A stretch of 64,000 bases of DNA from NCBI RefSeq assembly GCF_965363235.1, contig NC_134844.1:73463497-73527496 (forward strand), written 5' to 3'. The notes below the pieces were generated by a model. That model did no database searches and was not told the DNA's origin. It worked only from the letters and a program-made list of their open reading frames with translations. Source of the DNA: Mytilus galloprovincialis (taxonomy: Eukaryota; Mollusca; Bivalvia; Mytilida; Mytilidae). This document shows positions 3,708 through 36,059 of this stretch, one piece after another. Positions within the stretch are counted from its first letter, which is position 1; every line of letters begins with the position of its first letter. A program made the position numbers and the translations under genes.

Positions 3708-3854
3708 CATGTTTAACCCCGCCAAATTTTGTGTTGTAAAATATCATTTAATCTATATAAATTATGTGCCAAAGTTTTGTGTTGCAACACACGAAAAACT
3801 AACATTCACTTTCTCTCATTTTAATAAGATATTGGAATAGGTCAGCTTATTATT

Positions 3855-4120: not shown

Positions 4121-5426
4121 CAGCATTTGCACCCGCAAAGTGGAAATAGATTAATATAAGTTGTAATAACTTGTTTCCCAATCCATTATAAATACATACG
4201 GTACAACTAATTATCATTTTAGTTCTAGGTCGTAACAGAATGTCTAAAAGATTAGTGAATCGACACATAATACAAGAGTCTATTGCCAGAGTATCAGGAC
4301 TGTAAAATTTATTCCAGAATGTGTAAATAGAACAAATATGTATCCATCTGTAAACGGAGAAAATGCCTGTTCCAAATCAGGAACAAGACATTTGTTTTTC
4401 ATTCGTTCGTATTTGAGTTTTTAATTTTGCAATACGAATAGGGACTATGCATTTTGAATTCTCACCGGGTAAGTGTTTTTGTGATTTTACTTTCTAGTAT
4501 TATATCAGGGCTAATATTTATGTTCAAATATATGTTTTTGTCCTGATAATACGTACTTATTTGCCGCTGGACTTAATCAGCTATCCACCATCACCAAAAC
4601 ACATTATGAATCATGTGAGGTACATTCATGGACATACAATTTTTGGTCTTTTAAAACATGTGTACCTTGAGTGCAATTACCTTTAAAAGCCGACACGACG
4701 GAAACAGGCATACGATACAGTTATAGGGGAGATAACGACGTTGTTAACGTAAAATGTTATTTTTGCGACGTCAAACTATGACATATCGGGAAAAGATGCA
4801 TTTTTCGACTAATTTTTATCATTCAAACTGATTTAATTTGAAAAGTGAGTGCATGGACCCCTATTTTTCAAAACGGCAACTTGCTTCATTTTGCAAGGAA
4901 ATAATGTGATTCAAATTTTATAAAACTGTTATTAGCGCATTTTTAAAAAATTTTGATAAACATGCAGCAAAAAAAGACGTTTTTCCCTCTATTCATGAAC
5001 ATTTGATAAATATTAGATATTTCTGAATAAAAACTGAATTATTTTTAATGATACTTACATGTATAACGTACAGAAATTACCAATTATCTAACAAAAAACA
5101 ATTTGTGTTTATCTTTAAAAACAAAAAAGTTATGTCTTTCTTTCAAAAAAGAAAATACGGACAAAAATCTGAAATTTGAGCAAATATACAAAATTTCGAC
5201 ATCATTTTATTCAAAAAGTAGCGCATGAAGGTATATATTTTTTATTACATATCTATACTATTAAACGAGAAGACCTCATTTTGGGTGTCGCTTCTCTTCT
5301 TTCCACAATAAATTAATCATCATGCCTCTGTGTCCTATGGGTTCAGTGCATAATCGCATTTGTCATCCATTCATATGATTATTCAGATTGAGTTATTTTG
5401 GGTGAAAAACGAGAAAAAAGACATCC

Positions 5427-5650
5427 GGATATGTTTCCGTCATTGGGCGAAATTTTAAGTCAGATTAGACTTCCGGTTTGCTTTTTTCTGTATACTTTTA
5501 ATACTACGAATACAGTGTATTTTCTGTCTTATATCCGTCAATGGACGAAATTTATGTCAGATTAGACCTCCGGTTTGCGTTTTTCTTTTTATTTTGAAAC
5601 AAATACATATACTACGAATAAAGTTATTTTCTGTCTGATATAATTTTTAA
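5427..5650 (+). repeat. ~100-bp tandem duplication inside the Helitron
   Basis: Two diverged direct copies contain 'GTCAGATTAGAC', 'CCGGTTTGC' and 'ACTACGAATA', ending with 'TTTTCTGTCT'. The copies start near 5440 and 5540. Just after them, 5654-5727 is a small hairpin with arms ATCCACGGCAGTCA and TGACCGCTGTGGAT. Confidence 0.7.
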
Positions 5651-5947
5651 GTTTACTATCCACGGCAGTCACAGGGTTTATTTAATAGGGAGGGTCTGAA
5701 TAATATATCAATGACCGCTGTGGATCAATTATTAAACTGAGAATTGACTGTAAAAAGAAAATACACTGACTTCCAGGACGTCTGGAGCGGGTGTTTTCAA
5801 GATCGAAATTTCAGGATTTACCATTTCGGGATCCGGGATTTCTTTTTTCGAATTTCGAGATGTCGAGATATTTAATTTGTATAATAAATTCAGAACCTCG
5901 GGATTTCATGTTTTTAAGCCCGGGATATTGGGATCAGGGCCCCTCCG

Positions 5948-6092
5948 AAGTGGCGGATCTAGAAATGTTCATACACAGGGGCCTGTTGACTGCCTAAGAA
6001 GGGGTCCGTTCCGTTCATGCTTCAGTGAATCTATATAAGCAACCACTTATTTTTCAGAAAAGGGGGGGGGGCTCCCTTAATCCGCCTCTGCC
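5948..6092. mobile_element. GGCGGATC-ended MITE relic
   Basis: It begins 'GTGGCGGATCTAG' and ends near 'TTAATCCGCCTCTG', inverted versions of the ends seen at 13970-14115, 20034-20196 and 60854-60989. The interior contains a G-run and 'CTATATAAGCAACCA', which resembles the copy at 19629-19765. The ends are worn and no target duplication is clear. Confidence 0.6.
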
Positions 6093-6104
6093 CCGATCCC
6101 CCCT

Positions 6105-6727
6105 TTAATGAATGTTCATAATATACAGATAAGCGCTAAAATTATTCATGTGTCACTAAAATTAATAGAGAACAAAAAAAAAAAAATTTGTGGAAAAAGG
6201 AGGAGCCGGGCTAGAAAAACAATTATCCTGTCCCAAATTACCTATGAATTTTGATACTTTTTCTGAAATTCTCAAGTCGCTGAATGTTTTACAAAAAAAG
6301 AAGATGTGGTATTATGAATGCCAATGAGACAGCTCTCCACAAGAAACCAAAATGACACAAATTAACATTTAGAAGTCACCTAACGGCCTTCAACAATAAG
6401 CAAAAACCGATACTGCAAAGTATGATATAAAAGGCCCCGAAATGACAATGTAAAACAATTTAAATGAGAAAATTAACAGCCTTATTTATGTACAAAAAAT
6501 GAACGAAAAACAAATATCACTGAACCACTGAATTACAGGTTCCTGACTGGAATGTTCATAATACATGTACACTAAATGTATGTTAATAATGACATTAATA
6601 GAAAACAAAAAATTGGAATTTTAGAAATAAAGGAGGAGGGTTAATAAAAAACATATTCCTGTCCCCAAGTACCTATTACTTTTGATACGTTTCCTGAAAT
6701 TCTGAAGTCATTATAAATCTTTTACAA
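6105..6727 (+). repeat. Direct repeat pair flanking a SINE
   Basis: 6105-6300 and 6553-6727 are diverged direct copies (shared 'ATGTTCATAATA', 'GGAGGAG', 'TTTTGATAC', 'CTGAAATTCT', 'TTTTACAAA'). Between them lies a minus-strand copy of the common SINE-like family at 6296-6550. This is an internal duplication of the Helitron body with the SINE at its junction. Confidence 0.65.
6296..6550 (-). repeat. SINE-like family copy, reverse orientation
   Basis: The sequence reads 'AAGAAGATGTGGTA', then 'CCAATGAGACAGCT', 'CGGCCTTCAACAATAAGC', 'ACGAAAAACAAATAT' and 'GAATTACAGGTTCCTGACT'. The same order is found at 36060-36465, 58030-58290 and 61335-61500, and in reverse at 14708-15030. It is one of at least eight copies or pieces in the window. 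Confidence 0.75.
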
Positions 6728-7204
6728 AATTCTGCCTACAACACTTTACATCCTCTCAAATACGCTCTGAATGCCCGCCATTTCGCGGGTGTGTTCTAGT
6801 TTTATTTAATCAGGTAACAAATAGCCTACATGCAAATTTTCATCAACTTGTAAATACAGGTTCAAAACTGTATCGTATGCCCTTAAGAAAAGGTGAATAA
6901 GATTCAAATTCAATATGTATTAACCCTTACCATGCGGAATTGTTTTCAGAAAATGTCTAATTTTCGTTTATTTGCAAAAATATGCAAATTATATGCAAAT
7001 GAGATTAGCCCTGTTTCTGTAGCATATTGATTTCTTTAAATCTAATATAGGTGATCACGGGGTGGGGTAGTCGGGTTGAGGAGGCGGTTTTTTTTTGGCG
7101 GGAATTTGCCCCAAAGTGGGTCATCAGGTGCAAAAAGCGTTAATCTTGCCGATTTTTCAACCATTCTTTTGACCCAGAAGACCAACACTACTGGACGAAA
7201 AAAC

Positions 7205-7650
7205 GTCTGTCCATACCAGTAACAGTCGTTCTAAGACTGATAATGTTTGTTAAAGTTGTAGCAGTTGTTAAATTTCACTGCTGCAGTTTTTTTGTAACTG
7301 TCCCAACTTTAAAAGTGTTTGTCTACAACATAAATCGACTGTAACAACGCAAGAAATAACTGTCACCGTTACTAAAGGACTGATACAACTATTTCAAAGT
7401 TGTAACAGTTGATTTACAGCTGTCCCAACTCGAAAAACGTTGTAACAGTCATAAATAAACTGATTAAACGCCTGAAGGGTTGTCACAGTCGTAATAAAAC
7501 TGATGCAACCATTTGAAAGTTGTAACAGTCATTTAATTACTGTACCAACACGGAAAACGTTGAAACAGTCATAAATAAACTGTTTAAACGCAGAAAAAGT
7601 TGTAACAGTTAAAATATGATAGCTACAACCATTGTATAGGCATAGCTAAT
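7205..7650 (+). repeat. Left subterminal repeat array of the CACTA-like element
   Basis: About ten diverged copies of a ~40-bp unit are present. A typical half is 'GTTGTAACAGTCATAAATAA' followed by 'ACTGT' and 'CCAAC'. The unit contains short inverted pieces (GTTGTAACAGT against ACTGTNCCAAC). Subterminal motif clusters of this sort are transposase-binding sites in plant CACTA elements; the same role here is inference. Confidence 0.8.
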
Positions 7651-8584
7651 TTATAAGCGTAGCAACTTCCAAACATTGATCTTCATGTACACTTAAAAGT
7701 CACGGATACAAAATGTCTAACAGTCAGGGATATAGGTTCAATTATTTGCAAAAAAAAATTTACTGTGTGAAATATAAGGTTGTGACAAAGAGAAACGACT
7801 ATCACTCCAATGTAATACATTAATTTTAGATAGATATTGATTTAAAAAAAAAAGTATTTTGAAATATTTGCCGCTGAACACATTTTTGTATTCCTCGGTT
7901 ATTTAGTGAATGTGCTGAATTTATATATTTTTTTAACACTTCCTCGCCCTTATCTCTTCGAACCAATAAAATCGGAACCAGCACTAGATACCTGCAATTT
8001 CACTAGATAAAAGATATATCTACTAACAGAAAAATCGAAAAACGTTACCCAATATATTTGTTACCAAATGTATCTTTATAACTGAATTAAAAGTTGACAA
8101 TTTTTATATCATCTAAATAACAATTTAATTATTTTTCTATTAAATTAGTTAGGTGTAAAATCATTCATGCATACACGGTTGTTTTCAATACCCGTAGTTT
8201 TACGAATCACATCACTTCATAATAACGCTGAATATACATGACATACTCTAAACCTAGCGCGGAACTCCTAATACACGCACTTGTCAAACTTATCCCCACA
8301 TAAAACTGCTTTATATTTTCTTGAGGGCTTATTTCACACACTAATTTTTGGGGGGCTACATTTCTTGTAAAATTATAAATATTGCCGTATAATCATTTTG
8401 ATTTCTATACATGTAAAAAAAAAATCAGACATTTAACACATCTTTTGCAGCTATGGAAAACAAATCTTAAATCTATCTGAATTTAATTTATTTTATTTTA
8501 CCGTATTTTATTTTTGAATAGGTCAATATTAACTCGACTTTGTATTGTACATTGTACGGAATGGTCTATTTGAAGTTCAATTGT

Positions 8585-8669
8585 AATTTAACAATTAAAC
8601 GAGTCTTGCCTTGGTAAAAGGCGAAGTTTAATTGTAATTTTATGAGTTGTGTAAACACTGAAGGGATTA
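8585..8669. repeat. DIRS outer end, inverted with 8814-8898
   Basis: These 85 bases are a perfect reverse complement of 8814-8898. This is the outer edge of the element's 3' terminal repeat, copied in complement in the internal complementary region. Confidence 0.9.
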
Positions 8670-8813
8670 AATGAGATTGTGCTGCGCATGTGTGAACTTC
8701 AGTCTTCAAAGTAAAGTTTTATCAATATGACAAACAACGAAATACATATATACATATGACCCACAATAACTACATATAGGTCTCCCATAACTAGGGAGGG
8801 AGGGTGTGGCATT

Positions 8814-8936
8814 TAATCCCTTCAGTGTTTACACAACTCATAAAATTACAATTAAACTTCGCCTTTTACCAAGGCAAGACTCGTTTAATTGTTAAATTTT
8901 ATTTCGTTGTAACACTTCCGGGACCAAATGAGACTT
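8814..8936. repeat. DIRS internal complementary region
   Basis: 8814-8898 is the complement of the 3' outer end (8585-8669). It is followed directly by about 38 bases (8896-8936, 'TTTCGTTGTAACACTTCCGG' region) that are the complement of the 5' outer end at about 13345-13383. The junction shares an AATT overlap. In DIRS elements this region templates completion of the circular DNA before integration. Confidence 0.85.
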
Positions 8937-8997
8937 TAAAGCCATAATGATAAAACTGAATACCAAGATAAGAAATATATAATGTCTTACCTTATGA

Positions 8998-10227
8998 TTA
9001 ATTCTTCAACACATTAAAGCTGAAAGAATTTTCATCTTTTTCAATCTTTTTATTATAAAATTTTGCAAATGTTTTTGCATCTGACCATCCTGCTTTTTGT
9101 AAGATACGAGAAATAGGCACTGCATTCATCTTTGCTTTAGAAACTGATGCAGATCTAACACTGTGAGCTTTGAAAATTGTTGTGTCAATATTAGCTTTTG
9201 CCATTACTACTTTTATCCATCTAGAAATTGTATCTCTTGAAACCGGCTGATGTGGTTTCACATAACTTAAAAGTAACGGTTCATGTTTCCCTCTAAACAA
9301 TTTGGTACGAAATACATATTCTTTATACACAGTATATACACAAAGTCTCCTATCTGGAGGGTAAGCCTTTATATTTACAGTTGGCTCCTTATAACCAGGT
9401 CGGCTTTGTTTAACAAGTTCATTCAAAACAAAAATAAATTCTCCCTTCACTTTATGTACATGATTAACATTCATGAAATGAATTGATTGAGCTCGAGCTG
9501 CATTTGTCAAAGCTATTAACATTGTAAGTTTTAATGTTAAATCTTTCAATTTTAAATATTTCACTGGTGATAGGCTACGCAAAAATTGTAGTACTTTACT
9601 AACGTCCCATGTAGATTCATATCTAGGTCTGGGTGGACGAAGATTAAAAATTCCTTTCATGTATCTTATCACCATTGCATGACGTCCAACTGGAATACTG
9701 TCAATAGTAAGTCCTAAAGACGAAAGAGCTCCTCGAGCTAGATTTAAACTACTATAGCCTAAATTACCTTCCTTAAATAAAGTTGTAAAAAATTCAAGCA
9801 CTGTTCCTACAGAAATTTGAAAGCAATTAATTTGTTTTTTGTTACAATATTTGAACCATTTCCTGATATACACTTGGTACTGTTTCTTTGTACTTGATTT
9901 CCAAGACGACATGAGTATGTGGGTTGTTTCTTTAGAAAATCCTCGTTCTCTGAAGCTACTCCTGACACTAGACATGCAATTAGTTTCATTTTCTTGTGTA
10001 AAGGATGAACAGATTGTGGATCGTGAGGAAGATTCAAAATCTTCTTGTTCTTTGGAAGAACGATTGGATTGTCTGTTAACAACTGCATTAGTCTCGGAAA
10101 CCAAGTTTGTGTCTGCCAAAATGGAGCTATTACTACTCCTCTTGCACCGTCCTCTCTGATTTTGAAAATGCACCGGCTCAATAAACTGAAAGGAGGAAAC
10201 AAATAGACAAACTGAAAATATGACCAA
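8998..10227 (-). CDS. Tyrosine recombinase of the DIRS-type element
   Basis: This 409-residue frame is the integrase-equivalent of the element; DIRS elements insert circular DNA with a tyrosine recombinase instead of a DDE integrase. Visible features are an N-terminal SAM-like core-binding region (about 105-190, 'SWKSSTKKQYQVYIRKWFKY'), a first catalytic arginine candidate in 'NAARAQSI', and the C-terminal box 'KAHSVRSASVSKAKM' with the H-x2-R motif, followed by 'GWSDAKTFAKFYNK' with the presumed nucleophile tyrosine. It overlaps the end of the RT frame by about 420 bp, the arrangement usual for DIRS. The exact start is uncertain because the N-terminal part lies in the overlap; expression probably depends on downstream initiation or splicing. 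Confidence 0.87.
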   Translation of the reverse strand: MVIFSVCLFVSSFQFIEPVHFQNQRGRCKRSSNSSILADTNLVSETNAVVNRQSNRSSKEQEDFESSSRSTICSSFTQENETNCMSSVRSSFRERGFSKETTHILMSSWKSSTKKQYQVYIRKWFKYCNKKQINCFQISVGTVLEFFTTLFKEGNLGYSSLNLARGALSSLGLTIDSIPVGRHAMVIRYMKGIFNLRPPRPRYESTWDVSKVLQFLRSLSPVKYLKLKDLTLKLTMLIALTNAARAQSIHFMNVNHVHKVKGEFIFVLNELVKQSRPGYKEPTVNIKAYPPDRRLCVYTVYKEYVFRTKLFRGKHEPLLLSYVKPHQPVSRDTISRWIKVVMAKANIDTTIFKAHSVRSASVSKAKMNAVPISRILQKAGWSDAKTFAKFYNKKIEKDENSFSFNVLKN

Positions 10228-11816
10228 TTTATACTAAATGCATCAATAAATGCAGATAATGGATCTGGCTTCCAAGAGCAGTAATTTTCTAATTGGAAGT
10301 TTAATCTAGATGCAAACAAATCAATGTCTGGCCTTTGCCACAAAGTACATAATTGGTCAAAAACAGACCTTTTCAATTTCCATTCTAATTTGTCATCAAA
10401 TTCTCTAGATTTTTTGTCTGCTAGATTTTCTTTGCCTGCTATATGAGTGCATGTCAACCAGATGTCATTATCTTTACAAAACAACCAAATCTGTCTTGAA
10501 ATTGTATTGCAATCTATGGACTTTGTGCCGCCCATATTTGATATGTAGGCCACTGCCGTAGTATTGTCTGTAAGAACCTTCACATGCTTATTTATGATCA
10601 GATGCAGAAAGGATTTTAATGTATAATATATAGCTAATATTTCTAAATAATTTATGTGATTTTTTGATTCTTCATCTGTCCATCTACCTCCAATTTCATT
10701 ATCACTTAATATGCCACCCCATCCTAATAATGAGGCATCTGTTTGAATCACAATTTGTGGACTACCATGGCTTATATGTCTTAATTCAGTAGACACATTA
10801 GCAACCCACCATTCTAAATCTCCTTTCATCTGATTAGAAATAAGCATGCTTTGTTCAAAATCTCCTTTTGAGTTTTTTAAAGCTATAATTTTTTCCTTTT
10901 CAAGGTTACGATAAAACAATTTACCGAATTCAACGGCAGAAAAAGAGGAGACTATAAGTCCAATGACTTTTGCTACATCTCTAATCTTAGCTAAGTTTCT
11001 CTGCAGTAACCATTTACATTCTTTTACTAGGTTTTGTTTTTTGTCTGCCGTAAGGGTTATAATCATATTTTCTGAATCAATAATATTACCCAAGAATATA
11101 ATTTGTTTTGATGGTTGAAAAACAGATTTGTCTTCATGTATGACAAATCCTAATTTTGACATTAATTCAATTGTGTCATTTACATTTTTATTACATTCTT
11201 CTATAGTCTCTCCTAATAAAAGACTATCGTCTATGTAACCAACATTCACATGACCTAAAACTCTAAGACTAGAGTAAACAGGTTTTAATAATTTAGTAAA
11301 TATTCTAGGTGCGGAGGAAATCCCATTAGGTAAGCATGTGTATTGAAAAAGTTTTCCGTTCCAATAAAACCGTAAAAACTTTTGATGTTCCTCTGCAATT
11401 GGAACACTATAATAAGCATGTCTCAAATCAATAGAAGCCATAAATGATTTGCTAGTTACAAGTTTAATGGCACTTTCAAAAGTGTCCATTTTAAAATGAT
11501 GATACTCAATGTATTCATTCAACTTCTTAAGATTCAAAATCATTCTATATTCCCCATTCTTTTTTGGCCTTAAAAATATAGGCGATAAAAACTGGTCTTT
11601 CATTGACTGAACTTCTTTGATAACATCAATTGCCAGTAACTTTTGAATTTCATTTGAAACAATATCACTTTCTTTTGAGTTAAAGACAGATTTTACATTA
11701 AAAATGTCTTGCTTAGGTTCAACATTATCTATGAACTCTATATGACAATGGCTTACTATATCTAAAATAAATTTGTCAGAGGTAATTTTTTCCCATTCAT
11801 CGGAAAACTTTTTCAA
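9807..11816 (-). CDS. Reverse transcriptase / RNase H / methyltransferase-like protein (DIRS)
   Basis: The 669-residue frame begins with a DIRS/Ty3-like reverse transcriptase. It shows 'SPIFLRPKKNGEYRMILNLK' near residue 80, 'IDLRHAYYSVPI', 'LPNGISSAPRIFTKLL' and the catalytic 'YIDDSLLLG' near residue 195. RNase H follows ('IQTDASLLGWGG', then 'LTDNTTAVAYI' and 'HIAGKENLADKKSRE'). The last third, with 'DIDLFASRLNFQLENYCSW' and 'YLFPPFSLL', matches the domain next to RNase H in DIRS elements that resembles DNA N6-adenine methyltransferases; the role of that domain is unproven. It starts 41 bp after the gag-like frame and ends inside the recombinase frame. Confidence 0.88.
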   Translation of the reverse strand: MKKFSDEWEKITSDKFILDIVSHCHIEFIDNVEPKQDIFNVKSVFNSKESDIVSNEIQKLLAIDVIKEVQSMKDQFLSPIFLRPKKNGEYRMILNLKKLNEYIEYHHFKMDTFESAIKLVTSKSFMASIDLRHAYYSVPIAEEHQKFLRFYWNGKLFQYTCLPNGISSAPRIFTKLLKPVYSSLRVLGHVNVGYIDDSLLLGETIEECNKNVNDTIELMSKLGFVIHEDKSVFQPSKQIIFLGNIIDSENMIITLTADKKQNLVKECKWLLQRNLAKIRDVAKVIGLIVSSFSAVEFGKLFYRNLEKEKIIALKNSKGDFEQSMLISNQMKGDLEWWVANVSTELRHISHGSPQIVIQTDASLLGWGGILSDNEIGGRWTDEESKNHINYLEILAIYYTLKSFLHLIINKHVKVLTDNTTAVAYISNMGGTKSIDCNTISRQIWLFCKDNDIWLTCTHIAGKENLADKKSREFDDKLEWKLKRSVFDQLCTLWQRPDIDLFASRLNFQLENYCSWKPDPLSAFIDAFSINWSYFQFVYLFPPFSLLSRCIFKIREDGARGVVIAPFWQTQTWFPRLMQLLTDNPIVLPKNKKILNLPHDPQSVHPLHKKMKLIACLVSGVASENEDFLKKQPTYSCRLGNQVQRNSTKCISGNGSNIVTKNKLIAFKFL

Positions 11817-11857
11817 TACACCAGCTTTAAAACAATGACTTACTTCATTTGATGTAT

Positions 11858-13105
11858 CTAATACTTCTGTGGATTTCCTCCTCTCTGGGAGTTTTTTGGA
11901 ATAGGGCCGGAACCTCGACCTCTTCCTCCTCGGAAGCCACCTCTTCCTCCACGGTAGCCACCTCTGCTAAAAGTACCTCTGTGGCCTCCTCTACCACCTC
12001 TGAAGAAGCCTCCGCCTCTACCTCTGCCACTACCAAACTTCAACTTGTTTCCAACTTTGGAACAATCTTCAATGTCCTTTGCAACTTTAGAGACATCATC
12101 TCCAAAAAGGTTGTTTGTGTAAGGAACAGAGTGTGAGCAGAGAGGCACATATTCTGCCATCATTTCGGGCTTTAAAAAATCCCTTCTAGTCATATTCAAT
12201 TGGCGGTTTGCATGGCCCAACAAAGCCAATACATCATTACATTTGTCAATGTATTCTCCACTACCAGAGTTACCATTGGCATTGTTGTTTTCGTCAATAG
12301 CCATTTTGTTGACAGTTTTTGTTAGAATTGTTGCTGCTTTTACAATAGTTCTTTCAAGAAATTGTAATTTTTTATCAGCAGATTGTGCTCCTGGTGAAAT
12401 TACATTCCACATGAGTTGGTTTATTCTTACAATAGATAAACCTTCACAATTTTCAGGTCTTGCATTATTTTCATCTTTAGTTAACTCAGAGTATTGTTCC
12501 TCATTCATACCATTCCTGAACAACTCATTGACATTATTTGCCAAGACCTCATCAATTTTGACATCACAAAGTTCTTGAACCTTACATCTCTTAGACATAG
12601 ATGAAAACCTATTATCATCTTTGTTCTGCTTCTTAGCAGGTGGTTCACTTTCATTGTCTACATTTTCCCCATCATCATGGGGGTTTTCTTCACCTTCATC
12701 ATAATTATCATCATAATTATTACCCTCGTCATATTCTTCAATGTCTTGTACCCGGTCTTTTAAAGACCTTATATCGTCAGATTGTCTTTTCTGACCTTCT
12801 TGGATTGAGACTAACATTGACATGATTGCATCATGATTGTCTACTTTTGCAGAGGTAGAAGGGCCAGGGTTTTGAGTTTCATTACTATTAACCTTCGCTG
12901 GTTTCTTACCCTTTACACTTGAAGTGTTTGCTCCGCCACTCGCGGAAGCTTTCGACTTTGTCGACTCATGTTTCCTTTTACCAGCCGCGCTGGAAACGGA
13001 ATTTATCTTCTCGGACAGAAGCTCATCTTCGTCCGTATTACTGATGTCTTCAAGTGAAGACTTTCTTTTTGAGGCGGACCCCTTTTCGATCATTTTCTCC
13101 GCCAT
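11858..13105 (-). CDS. Gag-like RGG-rich protein (DIRS)
   Basis: The 415-residue first frame of the element has a charged, low-complexity N-terminal half (S/K-rich, then D/E/N-rich around 140-170) and a predicted helical middle (about 185-340). Its C-terminal tail (about 353-410) is made of RGG/GRG repeats that would bind RNA or DNA. The order and position fit the gag-like first protein of DIRS elements, whose sequences are poorly conserved. No zinc knuckle is seen. The start at 13105 is the first ATG of the frame, close to the 5' terminal repeat. The antisense serine/threonine-rich frame over the tail is a shadow of the RGG repeats. Confidence 0.8.
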   Translation of the reverse strand: MAEKMIEKGSASKRKSSLEDISNTDEDELLSEKINSVSSAAGKRKHESTKSKASASGGANTSSVKGKKPAKVNSNETQNPGPSTSAKVDNHDAIMSMLVSIQEGQKRQSDDIRSLKDRVQDIEEYDEGNNYDDNYDEGEENPHDDGENVDNESEPPAKKQNKDDNRFSSMSKRCKVQELCDVKIDEVLANNVNELFRNGMNEEQYSELTKDENNARPENCEGLSIVRINQLMWNVISPGAQSADKKLQFLERTIVKAATILTKTVNKMAIDENNNANGNSGSGEYIDKCNDVLALLGHANRQLNMTRRDFLKPEMMAEYVPLCSHSVPYTNNLFGDDVSKVAKDIEDCSKVGNKLKFGSGRGRGGGFFRGGRGGHRGTFSRGGYRGGRGGFRGGRGRGSGPIPKNSQRGGNPQKY

Positions 13106-13319
13106 GTGTTTTCTTTATAACCGGTTTACGGCAAAGTGCCGAAACCAGGTGAAAGTCGTAAATTTTTACCGAATTACATCCGGTGATTACTAACTTTTAT
13201 TTATCTTATATCAAATTTTATTAATTATAAAATGAATACCAACTACGTTGGTTTAATATTTAATCTGAAGTTAGGACAATTCAAACTACGTCCGAACTGC
13301 CCAAGAGCTATCAGCACAC

Positions 13320-13383
13320 TGAAGTTCACACATGCGCAGCACAATCTCATTTGGTCCCGGAAGTGTTACAACGAAATAAAATT
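13320..13383. repeat. DIRS 5' terminal repeat (outer end)
   Basis: It contains 'CACACATGCGCAGCACAATC' and 'TTGGTCCCGGAAGTGTTACA'. The first block is complementary to 8674-8707 and the second to 8896-8936. It marks the right-hand limit of the element. Confidence 0.82.
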
Positions 13384-13940
13384 GATACACATGATACAGG
13401 TAAATAGCACGTCAGCATTCATGATTGAGGTAAAAATATATTATCACTCGCGAGAAAAATTCATATTTTCACCGGATTTTTCGCAAAGAATTTACCATAC
13501 ATAATTTAGGTAAATACTAGTAGATGGACGTACTGTTCAAGACCGGACAAAATAACTAGCGCAAGTGAAAGTTCAAATGTTCAAAACATGAAAACTCGCA
13601 TTGTTTAAGACGGGGAAGTCAAATCTTAATTCTTTTATTGTTTTCACATCACTTTTTAGAACTTGATGTATTCTTTAGACTCCGGTCTTATTAAATTCTA
13701 AAGACTGACATCGGATTCTCTTGTGTGGTTTCAGTTGATCAGATGTACTAACGTTTATCCAAAATATTTTCCCATTTCAATTGTTCAAATTCAAATTATT
13801 TAATCCCATAAATCATGTAAATGCTTGTACAATAATGACATATTATTTAATCAGTAAAGAAAACTAACAATGTTTCTAGATAGATAGATAGATTATGTAC
13901 AGACAATATTTTGGGTCCCTTTATATTTTTTTGTTCGGTG
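13384..13940. other. AT-rich stretch without a gene
   Basis: This lies inside the CACTA-like element, just outside the DIRS end. Only short frames are present and no family was recognised. A short GATA microsatellite lies at about 13881-13892. Confidence 0.6.
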
Positions 13941-13969
13941 TGAGCCGAGGCTCCATGTTGAAGGCCAAG

Positions 13970-14115
13970 GAGCGGATCCAGCCATTTTAAAAAGGAGTTG
14001 TTACTAACCCAGGACAAAGGGGGGTTCCAATTACATGTACCCATTCAAATGCCTTGATCGTCCAAAAAAGGGGGTTCAAACCCTCGGAACCCCCCCCCCC
14101 TTGGATCCGCGCCTG
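13970..14115. mobile_element. GGCGGATCC-type MITE
   Basis: It reads 'GGAGCGGATCCAGCCATTTT' at the left and 'CCTTGGATCCGCGCCTGAGG' at the right, inverted ends shared with 20034-20196 and 60854-60989. The interior has G-runs, 'CCCATTCAAATGCCTTGATC' and 'GTTCAAACCCTCGGAACCCC'. It is non-coding. Confidence 0.7.
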
Positions 14116-14498
14116 AGGCTATACATTGACCTATAATGGTTTAGTGCGTTATACATGTATGACTTTGTAATGCTTATTGTGTTTATGGAAAACAATGGGA
14201 AAATGTTGCTTAACATCTTGGGATATATATTAAGAAGGCATTTATTCAAAAGCAGATAGAATTGATTTGTAGAAAAACATGAATATTAAAGGGCAGATGA
14301 TCAACTATTATAGTACAAGTCTTTGATTAACCACAATATTATATTTGTCATCACTGACGTATCAATGTTGCTTTTGTATACATGGTATAAAAATCCAACT
14401 TGGGTTTCTCATCTGAACTTGTTTACACGGTGTTACATTATCTAATATAGCTAGGCCTGTTATAGGTTTTTCATTATCACACTTATGGGGAACTGATT

Positions 14499-14660
14499 TT
14501 GCTCATTGTTGAAGGATGTACAGTTACTAACAATTACATCACTTCACTTGAAGTTCCTCCATCGTTCAATTTTCATCCATGGAGATCCCTGTCTTGGTTT
14601 ACGGTTGATGGTTGTCTTATTGAAATTCATACCACATCTCCTTATTCTGGTTATCATACA
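14499..14660 (+). repeat. SINE-like family, 3' piece
   Basis: It contains 'GCTCATTGTTGAAGGATGTA', 'GGTTGTCTTATTGAAATTCA' and 'TACCACATCTCC', the 3' half of the family that is complete at 14708-15030. It lies directly upstream of that copy, so the two may be a tandem pair. Confidence 0.6.
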
Positions 14661-14707
14661 GTATACATGTTATACCAATGTCCCAGGTTAGTGGGAGGGT
14701 TGGGAAC

Positions 14708-15030
14708 TCGCTAACATGTTTAACCCCGCCACATTATTTATGTATGTGCCTGTCCCAAGTCAGTAGCCTGTAATTCAGTAGTTGTCGTTTGTTTATGTGT
14801 TACATATTTGTTTTTCGTTCATTTTTTTAAATAAATAAGGTCGTTAGTTTTCTCGTTTGAATTGTTTTACATTGTCTTATCAGGGCCTTTTATAGCTGAC
14901 TATGTGGTATGGGCTTTCCTCATTGTTGAAGGCCGTACGGTTACCTTAAATTGTTAATGCTTGTGTCATTTTGGTCTTTTGTGGATAGTTGTCTCATTGG
15001 CAATCATACCACATCTTCTTTTTTATATGT
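14708..15030 (+). repeat. SINE-like family, near-complete copy
   Basis: It starts at 'AACATGTTTAACCCCGCC' and runs through 'GTGCCTGTCCCAAGTCAG', 'GTTTTTCGTTCATTTTTTTA', 'GTTGAAGGCCGTACGGTTA' and 'GTTGTCTCATTGGCAATCA' to 'TACCACATCTTCTTTTTT'. This is the reference copy for the pieces at 6.3, 36.1, 52.6, 58.0, 58.3, 61.3 and 63.7 kb. No pol III boxes are clear, so it could be a SINE or a short LINE-tail family. Confidence 0.75.
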
Positions 15031-18000
15031 TATACAAGACTAAAATACCTAGTATTATCAAATTAATTATAACAATTGTTAATAGTTGTCAGACTTTTGT
15101 TATCAAAAAGCAGCTACTGTACATGTGTATAATCAAGATGTAGACATGATCACTGGTGTCATATGTAAACAAGAGTGACTGTGCAAATGCTGAAATGTCA
15201 TCTCTGCTTTGCCTACATGTATGAAGGTTTTACTACATGTACAAGTATCACACAAACTTTCAATTTTCATTAACCTTTGAAAATGAAGTTGCAGTCAAAT
15301 TAACCATGCCAGACAGATGATGTACACCCTACAAACTGACTTATAAACCCATGATACCCAAAATTTAGTGATTTATACTGTGAAAGAGATTTAACATTCT
15401 TAACATCCAAACCATGAAAACTAACTTATGAATATCCAATAATATGCCAAAAATAGTGATCCTATACATGTCTTGCATGTACATGTAGTTTATACTGTAG
15501 CATCTGAGAAACATTTGGAAATAGATCAAACCACAAAAACTAAGCATTGTTCAATGAACCATGACATTTTCATTGGGGTCAAAGTCTGATGTAATTCTTG
15601 CAATTAGACATATTCACCTTACACTCATTTCATAAACCAAATATAATTGACCTACTTTTCCTACTGCTTGTAGTATTTTTAAACATGTGTGAGAAACAAA
15701 CTTGACAAATTACATGTAACTGAAGTAACCTTAATCACTGATCCATGATCAGGCCAACCCTGCCTGACAGACACTGAGACATGTACACCTTTCAAAATAC
15801 CATAATAATTAATCCAGTAACTCAATTAATATACATACGTTATACATTTAAGACTTCAAGTGTATTTCACTGTGACTGTTCAAACAGTAATATTTTTTTG
15901 TAAACAGTTACATGTACATGTAGTGTACCATGAAAACTAGGTGAAGTGCAATGAACAAATCAATAACAGAAACTTCATAACATTTTAAAGGAAGTATCCA
16001 GGCATTTCAGCTTCAAAAATGTATCTGGTGAAGCTGAAATACAAAACGGTACGCTGTAGCCACTGCCAGATTGTAATACATATTTCTTGGCTTGCATGCA
16101 TGTACTTCATGTACTTCAACTTTTGTTGCAGGAGGGATAATAAAATTATACTTTAATGTACGTGCATGTTTTATTTGTTTTAAAAACCATGAACACTTGG
16201 CCACTAACATGACTAATCATGCTAATTAAGATTTTTATTTAATTCTAATTCAGACTTTAATAATTTAAGTACAGCAAGCAGTCATTTGACTCTAAACAAT
16301 TGACACGGACTGCACGAGACCCTCATAGTTGGTTAAGATCTTTTTACACACCCTGGACATGCTGGCGGTAGTTAACAATTGCAATGCCAACATAAACTTC
16401 AGATGTGATATACATGTACTGTTTTGTTAATTTCACTGAAACTAGAAATTCACATTATCCATATTGTTATTATATTAAAATGACTGATTATCCCCTTATT
16501 AAAAGTATTCATGAATTCAGATATGATGCACTATTATTAGTAGTATTCACTGAAACTATGCATTTTCATTATTCCAAATTGCTATTTCAAATGAATAGTT
16601 ATCCTGGGTATTCATGGAATTCAGAAATAATGTACATGTATGATTGCACTATTAATATTCACTGCAACTACGACATGTACGAAATTTTGTTATTCCAAAT
16701 TCACAATTGATCATGTTAATCCAAGGTAATTAGTCCTCCAGTAATGTGGTCCTCCTTTAATACAATTTGTAATTTTCCTATTTGTACAAGGCACAATTTT
16801 CTTCTTGTCCAATTTAATCAGAACATCACATTATCATCATGGAATAATGCTGCACGCCATATTAATAATTTCCAAAAACAATAGATAACTAGCATTAAAT
16901 AATGAATTAATCCATTGTTTCACAATTTGCAGCTATACAGCGACTCAGTGACATCTATATTTTCTATGCATCAAAGTGCACATGTACTAGCAGGTGTCAT
17001 ATTCTATTAAAGTGGGAATCATGGTCAAACCAATACATATTCAGTATGATTCTACAAAATAAAATATACATTTACACTCAAGTGCAGTAAATGTTTAACT
17101 AATAATAAATATATAATACTACATGTAAATACATTGTGCAATAATAAGAAAGTTAATTACAATAACTGTATTTACCTAGATAAAACTAGCACTTCTCATT
17201 TGATTGACCAAAAAATTCTAGCACTAATACAATTCTATTTTCAAGTCCCTATTAACAAGAAAAATAAATCTTTTAAGGGGGTCTAAATTCTATATAGTGT
17301 TGTCTTTTTTCCTGCATTAATGATTTGTTAAGTGTGATTGTGTACTTTCATTGAAGGGTTACTGTCTCATTGAGGCTCACACCATACTTTTTTTCATCAA
17401 TTCTTTAAAGTCAGACATCATGGACATAGTTATTCCTCTCTAAAACACAACAGGTTATTTCTTTTGTTTATTTTAATTATGTTTATGATTTAATATGAAA
17501 TATATTGATACTACAAACATGACAAACAAAAGTTTAAGGAACGAAAAAATAAAATAAATAAATGCCCTGTTACTATATACATGTAGATGATATTGACTTT
17601 ACCTTTGTTCAGTGCATACAATGAATAAACCTTTGTGATGTAAAAATATTGTTCCAAGACTTAACCATCCCAGTTAATGTTTTAAATCCTTGAGTTTAAT
17701 AATTTTTACATCTTTTGTGTTACCCTGAATACTTGTTACTTATTCATTTGTTATAACAGCTTGCATTAAATAATGCTTTGCAGCTCACTTTTTTATTTAA
17801 TTTAGTTATTTACCCAATTTTATTTTAATAAATCAATATTCAGATTACTTTTAAAATTTGCATTTTAATATCCAAAATAATATATATCCTGCTGTTTCAT
17901 ATTTTTCTTAAATTATAATTTGTTTTGAAAAAGTTATCAAAATTTTGAAGAGGACAATTTTAATCATGATAATTTGTGAACATTATTATAAAATTGTATC

Positions 18001-19406
18001 ATTATACCAATGACAGATTAAATATCATCCCCCAGGGCAATAAACTATTGTGTCTTAATTGGTATATTAGCTAGATCATGTATATAAGAATTTCTGATTA
18101 TTACCTATCGCATATCCAGTGTTAACATCCTGATTATTACCTATTTTAATGTCACATTTGCATGGTCATATTCAGTAAATACAAATATTTTAATTGTTAA
18201 TTTTGAATTTGAATTAAAAAAAAATGTTTTAGACTAAATTAGTACTAAATTAGTAGATACAACACATACAATGCAGTTAACACAGTAAATTTTATGAGAA
18301 CTTACTGGATAATACTATATCTATAAAAAATATTTTGAGCTTCATAAAATACTTTAAAAAAGTTTATACCATGTTATCATAAAAAAATATGCATACAGAT
18401 AGATTTTTTTGTTATGTTTTCCTGACATATTGAATGTTTACATAAAATAATTATCATGATTATGTAAAAAATGCAAAAAATCTGCAGTCGTATGTGAATG
18501 CACATGATCAAAGGAGATGTGGGATATATCAATGATGCATCAACCCAAAAGTTTAATAGGCAACAATAAAGTAACCAAAACACAATTTAATGTGTGTCGA
18601 AAAATATATATGACTTATGATTAGAAGGTCCTTAATCATTGCGGAATAAATATAATGACCATTGAATGTTACTACTTGTAAGTTAGATAACATGTATGGC
18701 ACAAATGAATTTTGAAAAACAATGCTAACAGGGCACAATTTATATAAAAATTTCACATGAAAATATATAGTTTGGGTTCAAAGTATTAACAAATTATAGT
18801 GATTTAATATAAATTCTATGTTAAATCTAAAAAGAATAAAATTATGATGCTAGCTTTGCTCTTTTAATATGTGTTTTTTAAACAATGTAGTACATGATAA
18901 AACAATTACTAATTGAATTAGCACAATTTGTTTAATCAACTGTGTTTAAATGGCAACTGTTTATGACTCTGTGCCTTGTTTCAGGAACATTAATTTAATA
19001 ATATTGTTTTATTTTGATGATTAATGCTATTTTAAACCATTTTTTAAAATATTTATTCACTTTCAATGCCTGGCATATGCATGCTATTATCAAATATATT
19101 AATGTTTTGTTGTCCATGATTTGAGAATTATTTAAAATCTAAATGAAAATGGACACTTGCTAAATATTAAAGTCACTATTTAATCTTAAAGTTAATAATT
19201 TTTTTAACATTTTATGATCAAATCATATGTGTTTGTACTATGCATGTTTTTTTTTTATCGAAATCGTGACGTCACAATGCATTCTAAATAGAACAAAAAC
19301 TATCAGTTGATGAAGCAAAACTAGGGAAATACTAGTAATCCAGCATAAGCATGATAAGAAACACATTTATATGGATACGTACATGTAAAGATCGGTTGGT
19401 TGTTGG
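15031..19406. other. 4.4 kb AT-rich interior of the CACTA-like element, no gene seen
   Basis: The sequence is strongly AT-rich, with many TACATGTA-type palindromic hexamers and octamers, especially at 15.1-16.7 kb. Only short frames without family features occur on either strand. No transposase motif and no RNA gene was recognised. Confidence 0.6.
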
Positions 19407-19642
19407 TTATAAAATGTCCAGTGACAAGTATTTCATGCAAATTTATGACCCGAGTTAGCAATACATTAACATACAATATGTACACTACATGATGTATAGG
19501 TCAGCATGGTCAGTGGCAGATCCATTATAAAATGTCCAGTGACAAGTATTTCATGCAAATTTATGACCCGAGTTAGCAATACATTAACATACAATATGTA
19601 CACTACATGATGTATAGGTCAGCATGGTCAGTGGCAGATCCA
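19407..19642 (+). repeat. 118-bp perfect tandem duplication
   Basis: The block starting 'TTATAAAATGTCCAGTGACA' at 19407 is repeated identically at 19525 (offset 118), through 'GGTCAGTGGCAGATCCA'. Identity of the two copies implies a recent event or an assembly artefact. The repeated unit ends within the start of the MITE that follows. Confidence 0.9.
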
Positions 19643-19765
19643 GAACTTTTCATAAGGTACAGGGCCCCTGACTGCCCTTAGGGGCACGGATCCAGTCATG
19701 CTTGAGTGATTCCCTATATAATCGACCAAATTATTCCCACAAAAAAGGGGAAGATATAGAGTAAC
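19629..19765. mobile_element. GGCGGATC-ended MITE relic
   Basis: It starts 'CAGTGGCAGATCCAGAAC' and holds 'GGGCCCCTGACTGCCCTTAG' and 'CTATATAATCGACCA', which parallel the copy at 5948-6092. The right end is not clear. Confidence 0.5.
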
Positions 19766-20033
19766 CCTTTATGTATTCCACTCAGGGTGATGTATGCAAA
19801 ATAATTAAGGGAATACATGACATACACATGATAATAGGGGGAGGGGGGACGGTGTCCTTCATGACTTTCAATGATTTATTATGAAGCACAACTTTAACAT
19901 TGAAGCTTAAAGGTGGCTCAAAGCTTATATTTTTCCTGGAACATGCAACTATGCACGAGTGTGGTAATATAGAACGTCGATTCATAGCTATATATAGCCT
20001 ATCGGAGTATCTCAATATAGATCCCGTAGGATC

Positions 20034-20196
20034 AGTGGCGGATCCAGCCATTCTAAAAAGGGGGGGGTCCAACCCAGAACGAAACAGGGGGAGGGGGGGG
20101 GGTCCAACTATATGTCGCCATTTAAATGCATTGATCGGCCAAAACAAAGGAGGTTCGAACCCTTGGAACCCCCCCTCCTTTTGGATCCGCCAATGA
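20034..20196. mobile_element. GGCGGATCC-type MITE
   Basis: The ends are inverted: 'CAGTGGCGGATCCAGCC' on the left and 'TTTTGGATCCGCCAATG' on the right. The interior has long G-runs and 'CCATTTAAATGCATTGATCG'. It is the best-preserved of the family in the window. The proline-rich frames across it are G-run artefacts. Confidence 0.78.
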
Positions 20197-20349
20197 GAAC
20201 ACATTGTAAGGTCTGTAAGCCGACAAATGTGCACATTTTCCCTTCAAAATTATGAATCCATGATTATTCGATAGACATGCTTTAAAATATTGATAATTTC
20301 TACTCACCGATTGTATTTTCCAGCTCAGATTATTGAACATGTGGTCTAA

Positions 20350-20790
20350 CATCTGTAGTTACCTGTGTAAAAATATAGTTTGCCGACCTGAGGTCCCGGT
20401 TTTTTTGTTTTTTTGCCGACAAAAAATTAAAGTGGATAAATCGTTTACGGTGAAGAATTGTTTTCCGTTTTTAATGAAACTTGACAGATTTTACTAATTA
20501 TTTTTTTAATCATCGGAAATGTCCCTCTTGGTGTAATTCGAATTAAAACGGGTTTATTATGCTGTACAATATTGGTAACTTAGTCATAATCTTTAAATTT
20601 ATTTCAGGTACAGCCTTGTACATTTTTCTATTGCGCAGAATTTATCAAATATGAATTTGAATGAATCCATTATCATCTTCTCATTCTTCTGCAATAATAT
20701 TAAAACTCTATTTTTAACGAAAGCTTCTGGTTTTTAAAACCAGCTATGAACGAAAATGTTATAAAAAACATATTATAAAATAAAAAGTAA
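20350..20790. other. Stretch without a gene
   Basis: AT-rich sequence inside the CACTA-like element. No coding, RNA gene or known repeat end was recognised. Confidence 0.5.
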
Positions 20791-20799
20791 GGATATCAA

Positions 20800-20965
20800 A
20801 AGGATTATTTAAAGTCAAACGCACATGACTGTCAAAAATGAACGGACAATGCTACGGCAATAAATGGAAAACGACAAAAGACAAACAACGATCGCAAAAT
20901 AAGTGAATAAACAGCAAAACAAGTTTACAATCGCACGATAGACGATAATAGTATAAGTAATGGAC
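20800..20965 (+). repeat. Interspersed repeat fragment
   Basis: 'CACATGACTGTCAAAAATGA', 'ACGGACAATGCTACGGC' and 'ACGACAAAAGACAAACAACG' resemble other short bivalve interspersed repeats. The assignment is from memory of the sequence style rather than a second full copy in this window. Confidence 0.4.
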
Positions 20966-21009
20966 TATTTCACAACAAAATCAAATCTTGAGAGTCGGGT
21001 GAGACGTGA

Positions 21010-21548
21010 TTTTTTTTTTACACTGATGGACTACCGTTACGCTAAAATATTTGTATTAAAACATTTACCGACTGTATCAACCTATGAAGTGTTTGTTTTA
21101 AACATTTAACGACTGTGTCAACCTTTTATAAGTTGTAATAAACATTTAATGACTGTGCCAACCTTTAGAAAGTTGTAACAACCATTTAACGACTGTCTCA
21201 ACTCTAAAAACGTTGTGACAAACATTTTTTGACTGCATCAACGTCTGAAAAGTTGACACAAACAAATTTTAACTGTCCCAACTATTAAAAGGTTGGGACG
21301 GACATTATGCAACTGCCACAACTATTAGAAAGACTGTAATAAATAGATTTTGACTGTGACAACACCGTAAACCACTGCAACAGTTCTGAAATGACTGATG
21401 GTAGCATTTTTTGACTTTCACAACCCGTAGAAAAGTTGGGACAGACATAAATGAACTGTTGCAACGAAATGTGACAGATTTGACAGTCATTACTTGTCTT
21501 TTACAGACTAAGACAGTCGTACAACGACTGTTACTGGTATGGGCAGTT
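21010..21548 (-). repeat. Right subterminal repeat array of the CACTA-like element
   Basis: A run of ~40-bp units such as 'ACATTTAACGACTGTGTCAA' then 'CC' and 'AAAGTTGTAAC' repeats about twelve times, in mirror orientation to the left array. The motif pair ACTGTNNCAAC / GTTGTAACA is shared with the left array. Together the two arrays make the ends strongly foldback-capable. Confidence 0.8.
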
Positions 21549-22125
21549 GTTTTTTCGTCCAGTAGTGCAAGGGTTGCTGGTTGAGGTATCCAGCTGTAGC
21601 CTGCGTGTAGAGTGGACCCTAGTGAACAAATTGATCCCAACAGTTGTTAGGTCGGAGTGAATCTGATTTTGGTTCAGCAGTCTACAGAAGGTAATTTGGA
21701 CCCAAAATACTGAATTTCCCTATTTTTACCGATTTTTGACTTCGAATGGACCTCAAACCGGGAGAAGTTGTTTCATATGCGTATTTCAATAATAATAATG
21801 ATCAGTAGTTCTATGGCCGTGGTTTTGCACTATCTTTGCCAGTTTTTTGCCTCTGAACTTCTTGTGTAAGATACAGATGTGAAGCCTACCCCTCCAGAAA
21901 ACGGAGTTTTAGCCATTTTCGATTTTCCAAGTCCGTATTTATGCTCAAAATGCTACGTATACATGAGAAACGTGAATATGGATAGCCTCAGGTTGACGGA
22001 ACATGCGTAGCTTTTAAAATAAGTATCATAAAGTGGACTTCTTAAAGTATGGAACGCCATTGGAGCCAAATAACGGTTATTAGGGTCCGCCCGTCAAATG
22101 ACGGTCACCGCATGGTAAGGGTTAA

Positions 22126-22728
22126 GATGAATTCATGGTATACCGCCATCTTGGATTGTACAATCACAGTACAAAATGGGTCTAGTGTTTTGCCCAAATC
22201 AGCAAATTGGGAAACACATTTGCAATTTAATGGTTAGACGACTGTTTATTTATATAAAGAAAACTTGTTAATTTATTGTATTATTCAAAATATTTTAACA
22301 AATACTAATCTTTTTGGTTTTTAAAATCATTTTTTTTCAAATGAGCTGTTCCAGGGGAGATAACTCTTTTAGTACAAAATTTATACTGGGCTAATAGGGA
22401 AATTTGTTATTTTTACTTGTGACAAAAAAAAACAAGTTCGGTGACACCATGTTTTCTTTTTATTTTCTTAAAACATATTATGAAACCTATCTTCTGACAA
22501 TTTATTTCAAGATTCTATCTCATGGAATTTTTTTTATGCACTCTTATGTGTTTTTTCATGAACAAACTTTCCAAATTTAGGCAATTTTCAACGACTCATA
22601 GCTTGAAAAATAGCACGGTGACCCATACTTTTTATTATATTTTTGAAAAAAAGCATAGTAAAATCTTCATTTTGGCAAATTATAATAAAATTCTGTCTCA
22701 AATAACATTTAACTATGATCTACATTAA
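22126..22728. other. 600-bp segment present only in copy A
   Basis: This piece lies between the right TTAA of the piggyBac-like element and the point where similarity to copy B resumes. Copy B lacks it. It is AT-rich with no gene. Copy B joins the two sides at a shared ATTA. Confidence 0.65.
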
Positions 22729-23694
22729 TGATGCGACATGATCATTGAGTATGAACAAAACCACCCCAAGTCTGTCAAATAAACTATGTTTAAAACATAA
22801 ACGATACACCTTTTAGCAGAAGATGCGTATTTCGACAATCAATGTCTCATCAGTGATGGATAAGGCCATGCTATTTGAAAATCCGAAATGGACGAAGTGT
22901 GTTTCTAAAACAGGCAAGGAGGCAGAGCTTTGCATGAATGAAATACATTCATAATTTAAGAATTTTCCCCTAATTTGAAGAAACGTTTTTGAACCATTAA
23001 AGAAATATTCATCTGAAACATTTATAATGTTTAAAAAGTTATTTTATTGTAGCAGATATTTGAATAAGTCTGCATATATTAATTTTTTTTGCAGTCCGGA
23101 TTCTGATATCGTGGTAATTTTGAGCTAAGTATGCAGTTCATAAAAGTGAAAAGAGTTCGTCGAGATATTTGTTGTGGTTTTCTGTGTTATGTTATCACCA
23201 AAGACAATTTTCCATCGTTTTCTTTTTATTCTCTTTATGTTCTGTATTATTTTCATTTTTGATATTAAATCATGTTCTATAAGATTTACTTGTACTGAAT
23301 GTATATATATATTTTATCTTTAAAAAACGTGATACATGTTCATCAACACACACTTCACCAAAGCACTACGAACACATAGGTGTTTCAGAAGTATCAACAA
23401 CTGATCAAGTTGACGTTTTCTCCAGTAACCTTTATTCAGCAACTGAAGGTTGTTAGATTTTTTATCTTTCAATATATTATAACAAGCTTGTCTTTTTGAC
23501 AGGATTAAATGTGTGCTCGATAAGGAGATGTTTGAGCTCTCCCAAAATATGTTAACACCGCCACTTTTTCCATGTGCTTGAACACATCGAGAAGGTTGTA
23601 AATTAGTGTTTGAGGTTGAGTACCATATATTTCTGATTAAAGCATGACGTATTTTTCTCTATTGAAGTGTTTGCTGTTCTGTTAAATTACTGTA

Positions 23695-24395
23695 AAGTCT
23701 CGGTCACACCTTACCGGATAGTACGAACGGACGCCTAACGGATGAAAATAAAAGTTGTTCGTTTGCAAAATTGTTTACTGTTGGGAGTCCGTTGGTGTAA
23801 AACGGACGCGTAACGAATGTATAACGGACACACACCGGATATGCAAGGTACGAGTAACAGAGACGTACCGGACAGAACGCATATCGAAAGTACATCCAAC
23901 GGACAAGTATTGCATTAAACGGACACCTAATGGAAGCGTACCGGATAAAGCAGATGAACAAGATATACGGAGAAAACTAAAGGCGACAATATTTTACATG
24001 TAAATCGCACCAACGGACTCCCAACGGATGAAAATTTTGTCAACGTTTTTTTTTATCCGTTAGGCGTCCGTTCGAGCCATCCGGTAAGGTGTGACCGAGG
24101 CTTAACGGCCACATAACAGATACAAAACGGAAACGAAACTAATGAGTACCGTACAAAATGGACGTCCTACGGATAAATTGTCCGTTGAACGTCCGTTCAA
24201 AGTTTTGAACATGCTCACAATTTTCCACCGGAAAGAACGGACGTCGACGGATACAACTTACGCTTAACAGACGTGCACCGGATATAGACAGACGTCTGAC
24301 GGATAAGAACGGACGTTTAACAGACATGAGCGGATTGAAAAAAGTTATCCGTTAGGCGTCCGTTTGAGCTATCCGTTAAGGTGTGACCAAAGCTT
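23695..24395. mobile_element. Foldback-like element built of ACGGACG/CGTCCGT motifs (copy A)
   Basis: The outer ends are inverted: 'CTCGGTCACACCTTACCGGA' at the left and 'GTTAAGGTGTGACCAAAGCT' at the right. Another inward-facing end at about 24060-24103 ('GGTAAGGTGTGACCGAGGCT') suggests a compound of two units. The interior is dozens of short motifs such as AACGGACGCCTAACGGA in both directions. It has no coding. The same structure is at 43363-44234. Confidence 0.72.
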
Positions 24396-24539
24396 AAGGA
24401 AGGGACGTTTTCATTGTTTATTTTTGTTTATGGCAATATTTGATTCACCTTTGGTCATTACAAGAGACATATAGCACAATATCTTTTAATTCAGTAATGA
24501 ATACTTTTTTTCGCCTCATTTTCATACACAAATTTAGTT

Positions 24540-24661
24540 AAAACCATGATGTCAATGGCATCATTCTTGCAGGTACATTAAATACTTGTGAACTTAAATA
24601 CTGATAATGTAATTTCTTTATCAGCTATTCACGTCAATTTACCAACTAACACAGTTCACAA
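24540..24661 (+). other. Probable leader (5' UTR) exon of the B-box gene, copy A
   Basis: The block 'ATACTGATAATGTAATTTC' to 'CAGTTCACAA' is followed by a GTAGGT splice-donor-like site at 24662. It is conserved with 44380-44501, more loosely with 29340-29433 and partly with 47720-47812. Conservation is centred on the donor and continues into the start of the presumed intron ('TTTTCAGAACAAATAC', 'AATGAAAACGGTT'). The coding exon starts about 570 bp downstream after an acceptor-like TTTTGTAG. Confidence 0.5.
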
Positions 24662-24774
24662 GTAGGTTTTATTTTCAGAACAAATACCTTAGCATTTAAA
24701 ATTAAAACAATGAAAACGGTTTGATGTTGTAGCGAAATTTGCCTGCCCTTTTTCGAAATCTTCAAGGTTGTTGA

Positions 24775-34100: not shown

Positions 34101-34125
34101 TTAAAATTATTTTTATTATAGAAAT

Positions 34126-36055: not shown

Positions 36056-36059
36056 ATAT

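Follow-up and report, generated by a model that had tools for sequence, protein, structure and literature searches.

A 14.4-kb insertion with CACTA ends and regular subterminal half-sites in Mytilus galloprovincialis, provisionally assigned to EnSpm/CACTA

What kind of element occupies positions 7186-21567 in a 64,000-nucleotide stretch of the genome of the mussel Mytilus galloprovincialis (contig NC_134844.1, 73,463,497 to 73,527,496, forward strand; hereafter the window)? A sequence-only reading had proposed a giant CACTA-type element without a transposase, bounded by identical inverted ends and hosting a DIRS retrotransposon. Our analysis indicates that this segment is likely to be a single inserted DNA transposon of the cut-and-paste, EnSpm/CACTA-like type, either non-autonomous or decayed. 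The superfamily is inferred from the ends, the target duplication and the subterminal arrays of a single copy.

Terminal repeats and target duplication

The element is delimited by the following features.

7183..7185, no strand: left CAA flank (flank sequence)
7186..7239, plus strand: left terminal inverted repeat, 90.7% over 54 bp; its outermost 19 bp match the right end without difference
21514..21567, minus strand: right terminal inverted repeat, partner of the left repeat
21568..21570, no strand: right CAA flank (flank sequence)

The 19-bp sequence CACTACTGGACGAAAAAAC is present without mismatch at both element ends, at 7186-7204 (+) and 21549-21567 (-), the two copies facing each other exactly as the sequence-only reading had described. 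These are the only two matches in the window, against a chance mean of 0.01; none of 100 shuffles reached two matches, and no third copy was found in the window with up to three mismatches allowed. The inverted repeat extends past these 19 bp (90.7% over 54 bp, 83% over 70 bp), and the terminal inverted repeats begin and end with the 5'-CACTA...TAGTG-3' expected of EnSpm/CACTA. Outside them, the left flank reads ...GACCAA and the right flank CAAGGG..., so that CAA abuts each end. The proposed duplication of CAA is therefore present on both sides, a 3-bp flank match that has a probability of 0.022 by chance alone, given the base composition of the window. In this one copy, it provides the 3-bp target site duplication of EnSpm/CACTA. 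Including its guest, the element spans 14.4 kb; 9,583 bp remain after subtraction of the 4,799-bp DIRS insertion.

Subterminal arrays of a half-site

Next to each terminal repeat, on its inner side, lies an array of the 11-bp half-site GTTGNNNCAGT.

7255..7609, plus strand: left subterminal array on a 20-bp lattice; of 12 strict GTTGNNNCAGT copies, 7 point inward and 5 outward
21071..21465, minus strand: right subterminal array, 9 strict GTTGNNNCAGT copies, all inward

Together, the arrays hold 21 strict copies in about 1 kb, compared with 2 in the other 62.98 kb of the window. In first-order Markov simulations (500 per array), the mean number of strict sites was 0.06 and 0.05, and no run exceeded 2 and 1, respectively. 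Between neighbouring strict sites there are 11 spacings in the left array and 8 in the right; each of these 19 is at most 2 bp off a multiple of 20. When mismatches are allowed, both arrays are composed of half-sites in either orientation. In the left array, at up to two mismatches, orientation alternates every 20 bp over 13 sites at offsets 193-433 from the outer end, and two more two-mismatch matches lie off the lattice at offsets 202 and 242. In the right array, inward sites recur each 40-41 bp at offsets 204-486 (8 strict sites); seven of the eight strict-site spacings are 40-41 bp and one is 102 bp, the lattice phase shifting between offsets 102 and 204. Weaker two-mismatch outward matches sit between the inward sites at offsets 265, 305, 345 and 385, accompanied by an inward match at offset 224 and an off-lattice match at 356; at offsets 425 and 465, no match with up to two mismatches was found. 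The alternation of half-sites is thus clear in the left array and degraded in the right array.

Tandem Repeats Finder assigned a period of 40 to both arrays (7432-7616 and 21043-21255), bearing out the repeat length of about 40 bp in the sequence-only reading. The mirror symmetry that it also claimed is partial, with 9 of 9 strict sites pointing inward on the right versus 7 of 12 on the left. Direct and inverted subterminal motifs, a further trait of EnSpm/CACTA, are both present, with strict outward sites in the left array only. Folded as single-stranded DNA, 7370-7640 reached a z score of -6.26 (0 of 200 shuffles as good) and 21060-21400 a z score of -1.75 (4 of 100 shuffles as good), the latter a slight effect.

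The unlike composition of the arrays (7 inward and 5 outward sites versus 9 and 0) raises the question of whether two separate ends, derived from two related insertions or from a rearrangement, face each other by accident without forming one element. An empty-site check, in which the joined element flanks were compared with the window, returned, besides the flanks themselves, one 41-bp stretch (90%) and one 18-bp stretch. No clean empty site was found in the window, because the paralogous block described below lacks 6923-22723, which is more than the element alone; its breakpoints also differ from the element ends, as separate ends would allow. Such an accident would nevertheless have to account for the facing orientation, the identical outer 19 bp and the CAA on both sides (0.022 for CAA alone), and asymmetric arrays are also reported for a soybean CACTA element (PMC2613891). 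We therefore regard two separate ends as most improbable.

The paralogous block itself consists of 37691-42322, which matches 1-4711 (95-96%), and 42360-45326, which matches 22724-25711 piecewise (90-93%). This copy has no counterpart of 4712-6881 and 6923-22723, and its 41-bp bridge, 42323-42363, matches 6882-6922 at 90%. A deletion in one copy and insertions in the other are indistinguishable as the source of this difference.

The DIRS guest

Within the left part of the element lies a second mobile element.

8585..13383, minus strand: DIRS-type guest, 4,799 bp, with inverted ends and an internal complementary region at 8810-8933
8998..10233, minus strand: recombinase-like frame, 411 aa; Phage_int_SAM_4, E 2.6e-5, 25 bits
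9807..11966, minus strand: reverse transcriptase and RNase H frame, 719 aa; RVT_1, E 4.5e-19, and RT_RNaseH, E 1.5e-8
11858..13114, minus strand: gag-like frame, 418 aa, so called by position only

DIRS1-type elements combine inverted ends with an internal complementary region, a frame for reverse transcriptase and RNase H, and a recombinase frame. The guest resembles these tyrosine-recombinase retrotransposons in its inverted ends, its internal complementary region and its frame for reverse transcriptase and RNase H, and it has a frame that is recombinase-like. Its internal complementary region fits both outer ends, since 8810-8898 and 8585-8673 are exact reverse complements of each other (89 nt), as are 8895-8933 and 13345-13383 (39 nt). 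The recombinase match covers the N-terminal domain only and, at 25 bits, stays under the curated cut-off of 27; in Pfam, no family exceeded its cut-off in the 418-aa frame. At 4,799 bp, the guest has the 4.8-kb length given in the sequence-only reading. The perfect matches between the complementary region and the outer ends suggest that its insertion may be recent.

Element interior and the search for a transposase

Apart from the guest and the arrays, the interior comprises the following parts.

7641..8584, no strand: left spacer, 28.8% GC (guanine plus cytosine), no recognisable gene
13384..21020, no strand: main interior, 31.4% GC, no Pfam family over cut-off in six frames
14664..15030, no strand: dispersed repeat of 0.37 kb, matching 36054-36418 at 90% and, over part of its length, 6294-6517 at 84%
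19407..19642, no strand: perfect 118-bp tandem duplication

We searched for a transposase with Pfam in six frames, reading stops as X, over 13384-21022 and 7186-8622; the right array and end (21023-21567) were left out. No Pfam family exceeded its curated cut-off in these stretches, in agreement with the earlier claim that no recognisable transposase is present, and no captured gene fragment was recognised in the element interior. Outside the DIRS frames, two matches reached E 1 or better, DBD_Tnp_Mut (E 0.1, 12.7 bits against a cut-off of 25) and dDENN (E 0.094, 13.2 bits against 26.8), and both were dismissed as chance. As controls, two stretches with a broken reverse transcriptase were taken through the same route, in three frames each on one strand. 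In 55800-57802, the reverse transcriptase was recovered through its stops in one of three frames (E 3.2e-16), whereas 37691-42324, one frame of which resembles a Penelope-type reverse transcriptase, gave no match in any of its three frames. Because one of two broken genes was recovered, the negative result, which covers Pfam families and neither solved structures nor predicted folds, is moderate evidence, and a very decayed gene could escape.

Part of the element's length comes from other DNA: the DIRS guest, the 0.37-kb repeat, a second repeat present twice (14019-14110 and 20096-20190) and the 118-bp duplication. What remains as 15031-19406 is 4,376 bp at 28.2% GC, free of repeats of at least 40 bp within the window. 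The sequence-only reading had put this remainder at about 5 kb of AT-rich sequence; its composition is as described, and its length is somewhat smaller. No open frame longer than 104 aa occurs in it, and the longest frame of 13384-21020, at 153 aa (19785-20243), overlaps a dispersed repeat. Period-3 signal was 0.2-2.1 in 30 segments of 600 bp, some overlapping the DIRS or an array, compared with 4.1-13.5 in five open frames of known or likely coding function, whose stronger signal is partly a length effect because these frames are longer than 600 bp.

A stretch of this size at 28.2% GC has room for a decayed gene, and the control search overlooked one of two broken reverse transcriptases, so decay could hide a transposase. 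The element might then be a once-autonomous CACTA element whose transposase gene decayed in the AT-rich interior, which would leave the superfamily as it is and change the origin. The six-frame Pfam search and the low period-3 signal speak against this, as do the outer 19 bp and the CAA, which are still perfect, and we give such an origin a slim chance.

The 118-bp tandem duplication at 19407-19642 is either recent or an assembly artefact. Copies of the dispersed repeat at 14664-15030, 36054-36418 and 6294-6517 share 82-91% among themselves, and the repeat also matches, less closely, around 58 kb and 61 kb.

Superfamily assignment

CACTA...TAGTG ends together with a 3-bp duplication are described as marks of CACTA elements (PMC4158355). 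Such elements typically carry subterminal units of 10-20 bp that occur in both orientations, and most of them lack both genes (PMC8195511). According to PMC4455052, ends and duplications are the main basis on which Repbase classes non-autonomous elements, with the rule that the duplication length be equal and the ends alignable at positions 1-11 with a listed family. Fungal families have similarly been classed as EnSpm by CAC..GTG ends, 3-bp duplications and weak protein similarity (PMC12730594). By this ends-and-duplication convention, we file the element provisionally under EnSpm/CACTA. EnSpm is on record from a mussel genome, with 4,175 annotated repeats (0.08%; PMC10137854), and from a clam, two assemblies of which have 2,744 and 4,019 copies (PMC8905726). 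The sequence-only reading had taken ends, duplication and arrays to define EnSpm/CACTA. These traits make it the best reading and leave the superfamily unsettled, because the superfamily is defined by its DDE transposase and because AcademX and Zator elements give such duplications too.

Several points weigh against the assignment. It is based on a single copy, with no family member and no transposase recognised in the element, and at one mismatch GTTGNNNCAGT is unspecific, with 26 matches in the arrays and 43 elsewhere in the window. Plant-like ends are unexpected here because the animal CACTA relatives reported in PMC1636069 and PMC4298943 have CCC ends and 2-bp duplications, and because CACTA elements have been called exclusive to plants (PMC8195511), a statement contradicted by PMC1636069. 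The latter paper also has one beetle end that differs from CACTA by a single base. Finally, a curated bivalve library lists 100 Academ and 3 Zator elements versus 2 CMC elements (PMC10294476), and target duplications are given as 3 or 4 bp for AcademX and 3 bp for Zator (PMC10045372), which the CAA would fit too. CMC is present in all genomes of the same bivalve study (PMC10294476).

The library counts and duplication lengths would both suit a non-autonomous AcademX or Zator element that acquired CACTA-like ends by convergence. The CACTA core is nevertheless complete at both ends, and subterminal repeats in two orientations fit EnSpm/CACTA (PMC4158355, PMC8195511). Each of these two points argues weakly against convergence, which we consider unlikely.

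Size and closest known systems

The sequence-only reading had also called the element large for a non-autonomous one, a claim that proved weak. In a lettuce study, putative members of the non-autonomous family were expected to span 1,000-30,000 nt (PMC8195511), and the soybean CACTA element Tgmt*, which is putatively autonomous, measures 20.5 kb (PMC2613891). The size of the mussel element is unremarkable.

Among described systems, lettuce LsC1 shares the CACTA superfamily ends, the 3-bp duplication and the lack of a transposase (PMC8195511). It differs in being 3.9 kb long with 28-nt imperfect ends (PMC8195511), whereas the mussel element, its guest subtracted, has 9.6 kb, ends of 54 bp and a 20-bp half-site lattice. 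An interior made of other DNA recalls the Tpn1 family of morning glory (PMC8195511). Soybean Tgmt* is alike in size class, in its 3-bp duplication and in its asymmetric subterminal motifs, which are direct as well as inverted and can form stem-loops, and unlike in encoding a transposase and having 13-bp imperfect ends and another motif (PMC2613891). SmTRC1 of Schistosoma, from the TRC group of animal CACTA relatives, likewise has 54-bp inverted repeats, whereas its ends are CCC, its duplications are 2 bp in 7 of 14 copies, and it is 4.5 kb long with a Transposase_21 domain (PMC1636069).

A possible mechanism

The element is probably an ordinary helper-dependent transposon with a regular end architecture and, if it is mobilised at all, would be mobilised in trans. 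A DDE transposase from another copy would cut at the CACTA ends. The same transposase, or a TnpA-like accessory protein, may bind the GTTGNNNCAGT half-sites and aid the pairing of the two ends, with the 20-bp lattice of largely alternating half-sites serving as the binding array; the regular placement suggests that binding may be cooperative, a dimer being one candidate. A 3-bp stagger at insertion would have duplicated CAA, and the DIRS retrotransposon would have entered at 8585-13383 in a later step, after the element had landed.

Maize Spm/En offers a precedent, with TnpA as the protein that recognises the subterminal repeats and TnpD as the putative transposase; both are needed and can both be supplied in trans (PMC2613891). 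In the literature examined, such two-protein recognition by TnpA and TnpD is described for plants only. The locus opens the question of whether animals, too, use the array-based end recognition of plant CACTA elements. It is a tentative thought, and doubtful at present, that animals have a family of large CACTA transposons that depend on a helper and carry plant-like ends, in which lattice arrays of alternating half-sites serve recognition by two TnpA/TnpD-like proteins. The 19-bp end, the 11-bp half-site and the 20-bp lattice together form a precise handle for seeking a helper transposase in a genome; in other respects, this isolated copy is an ordinary nested transposon.

Search for relatives in other collections

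DNA-pattern scans were run four times on a collection of viral contigs and once on one of prokaryote genome contigs, the source genome not being among them. The 19-bp end matched one stretch in each collection, that among the prokaryote genomes lying on an Alkalicoccus contig. In the viral contigs, a shortened end matched four stretches (one already matched by the full 19-bp end), the inner inverted repeat two and a paired half-site pattern seven. None of the first seven of the resulting 14 loci (L001-L007) has a second facing end, and each contains 0-2 strict half-sites. No arrays were found in L001-L014; as no 600-bp stretch exceeds 2 strict half-sites, we rejected all 14 as chance matches. 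A limited literature search for the end string and for CACTA or EnSpm in Mytilus retrieved no printed account of a family with these ends.

Other features of the window

Three related B-box gene copies lie at 25295-26572, 34105-35763 and 44826-45344. The first two have zf-B_box matches, both under the curated cut-off, and the third is grouped with them by DNA and frame similarity only. A 450-bp fold-back at 59016-59465, 86% to its own reverse complement, is perhaps a small inverted-repeat element. The frame at 50052-51158 is UDP-glucuronosyltransferase-like (UDPGT, E 3.9e-65).

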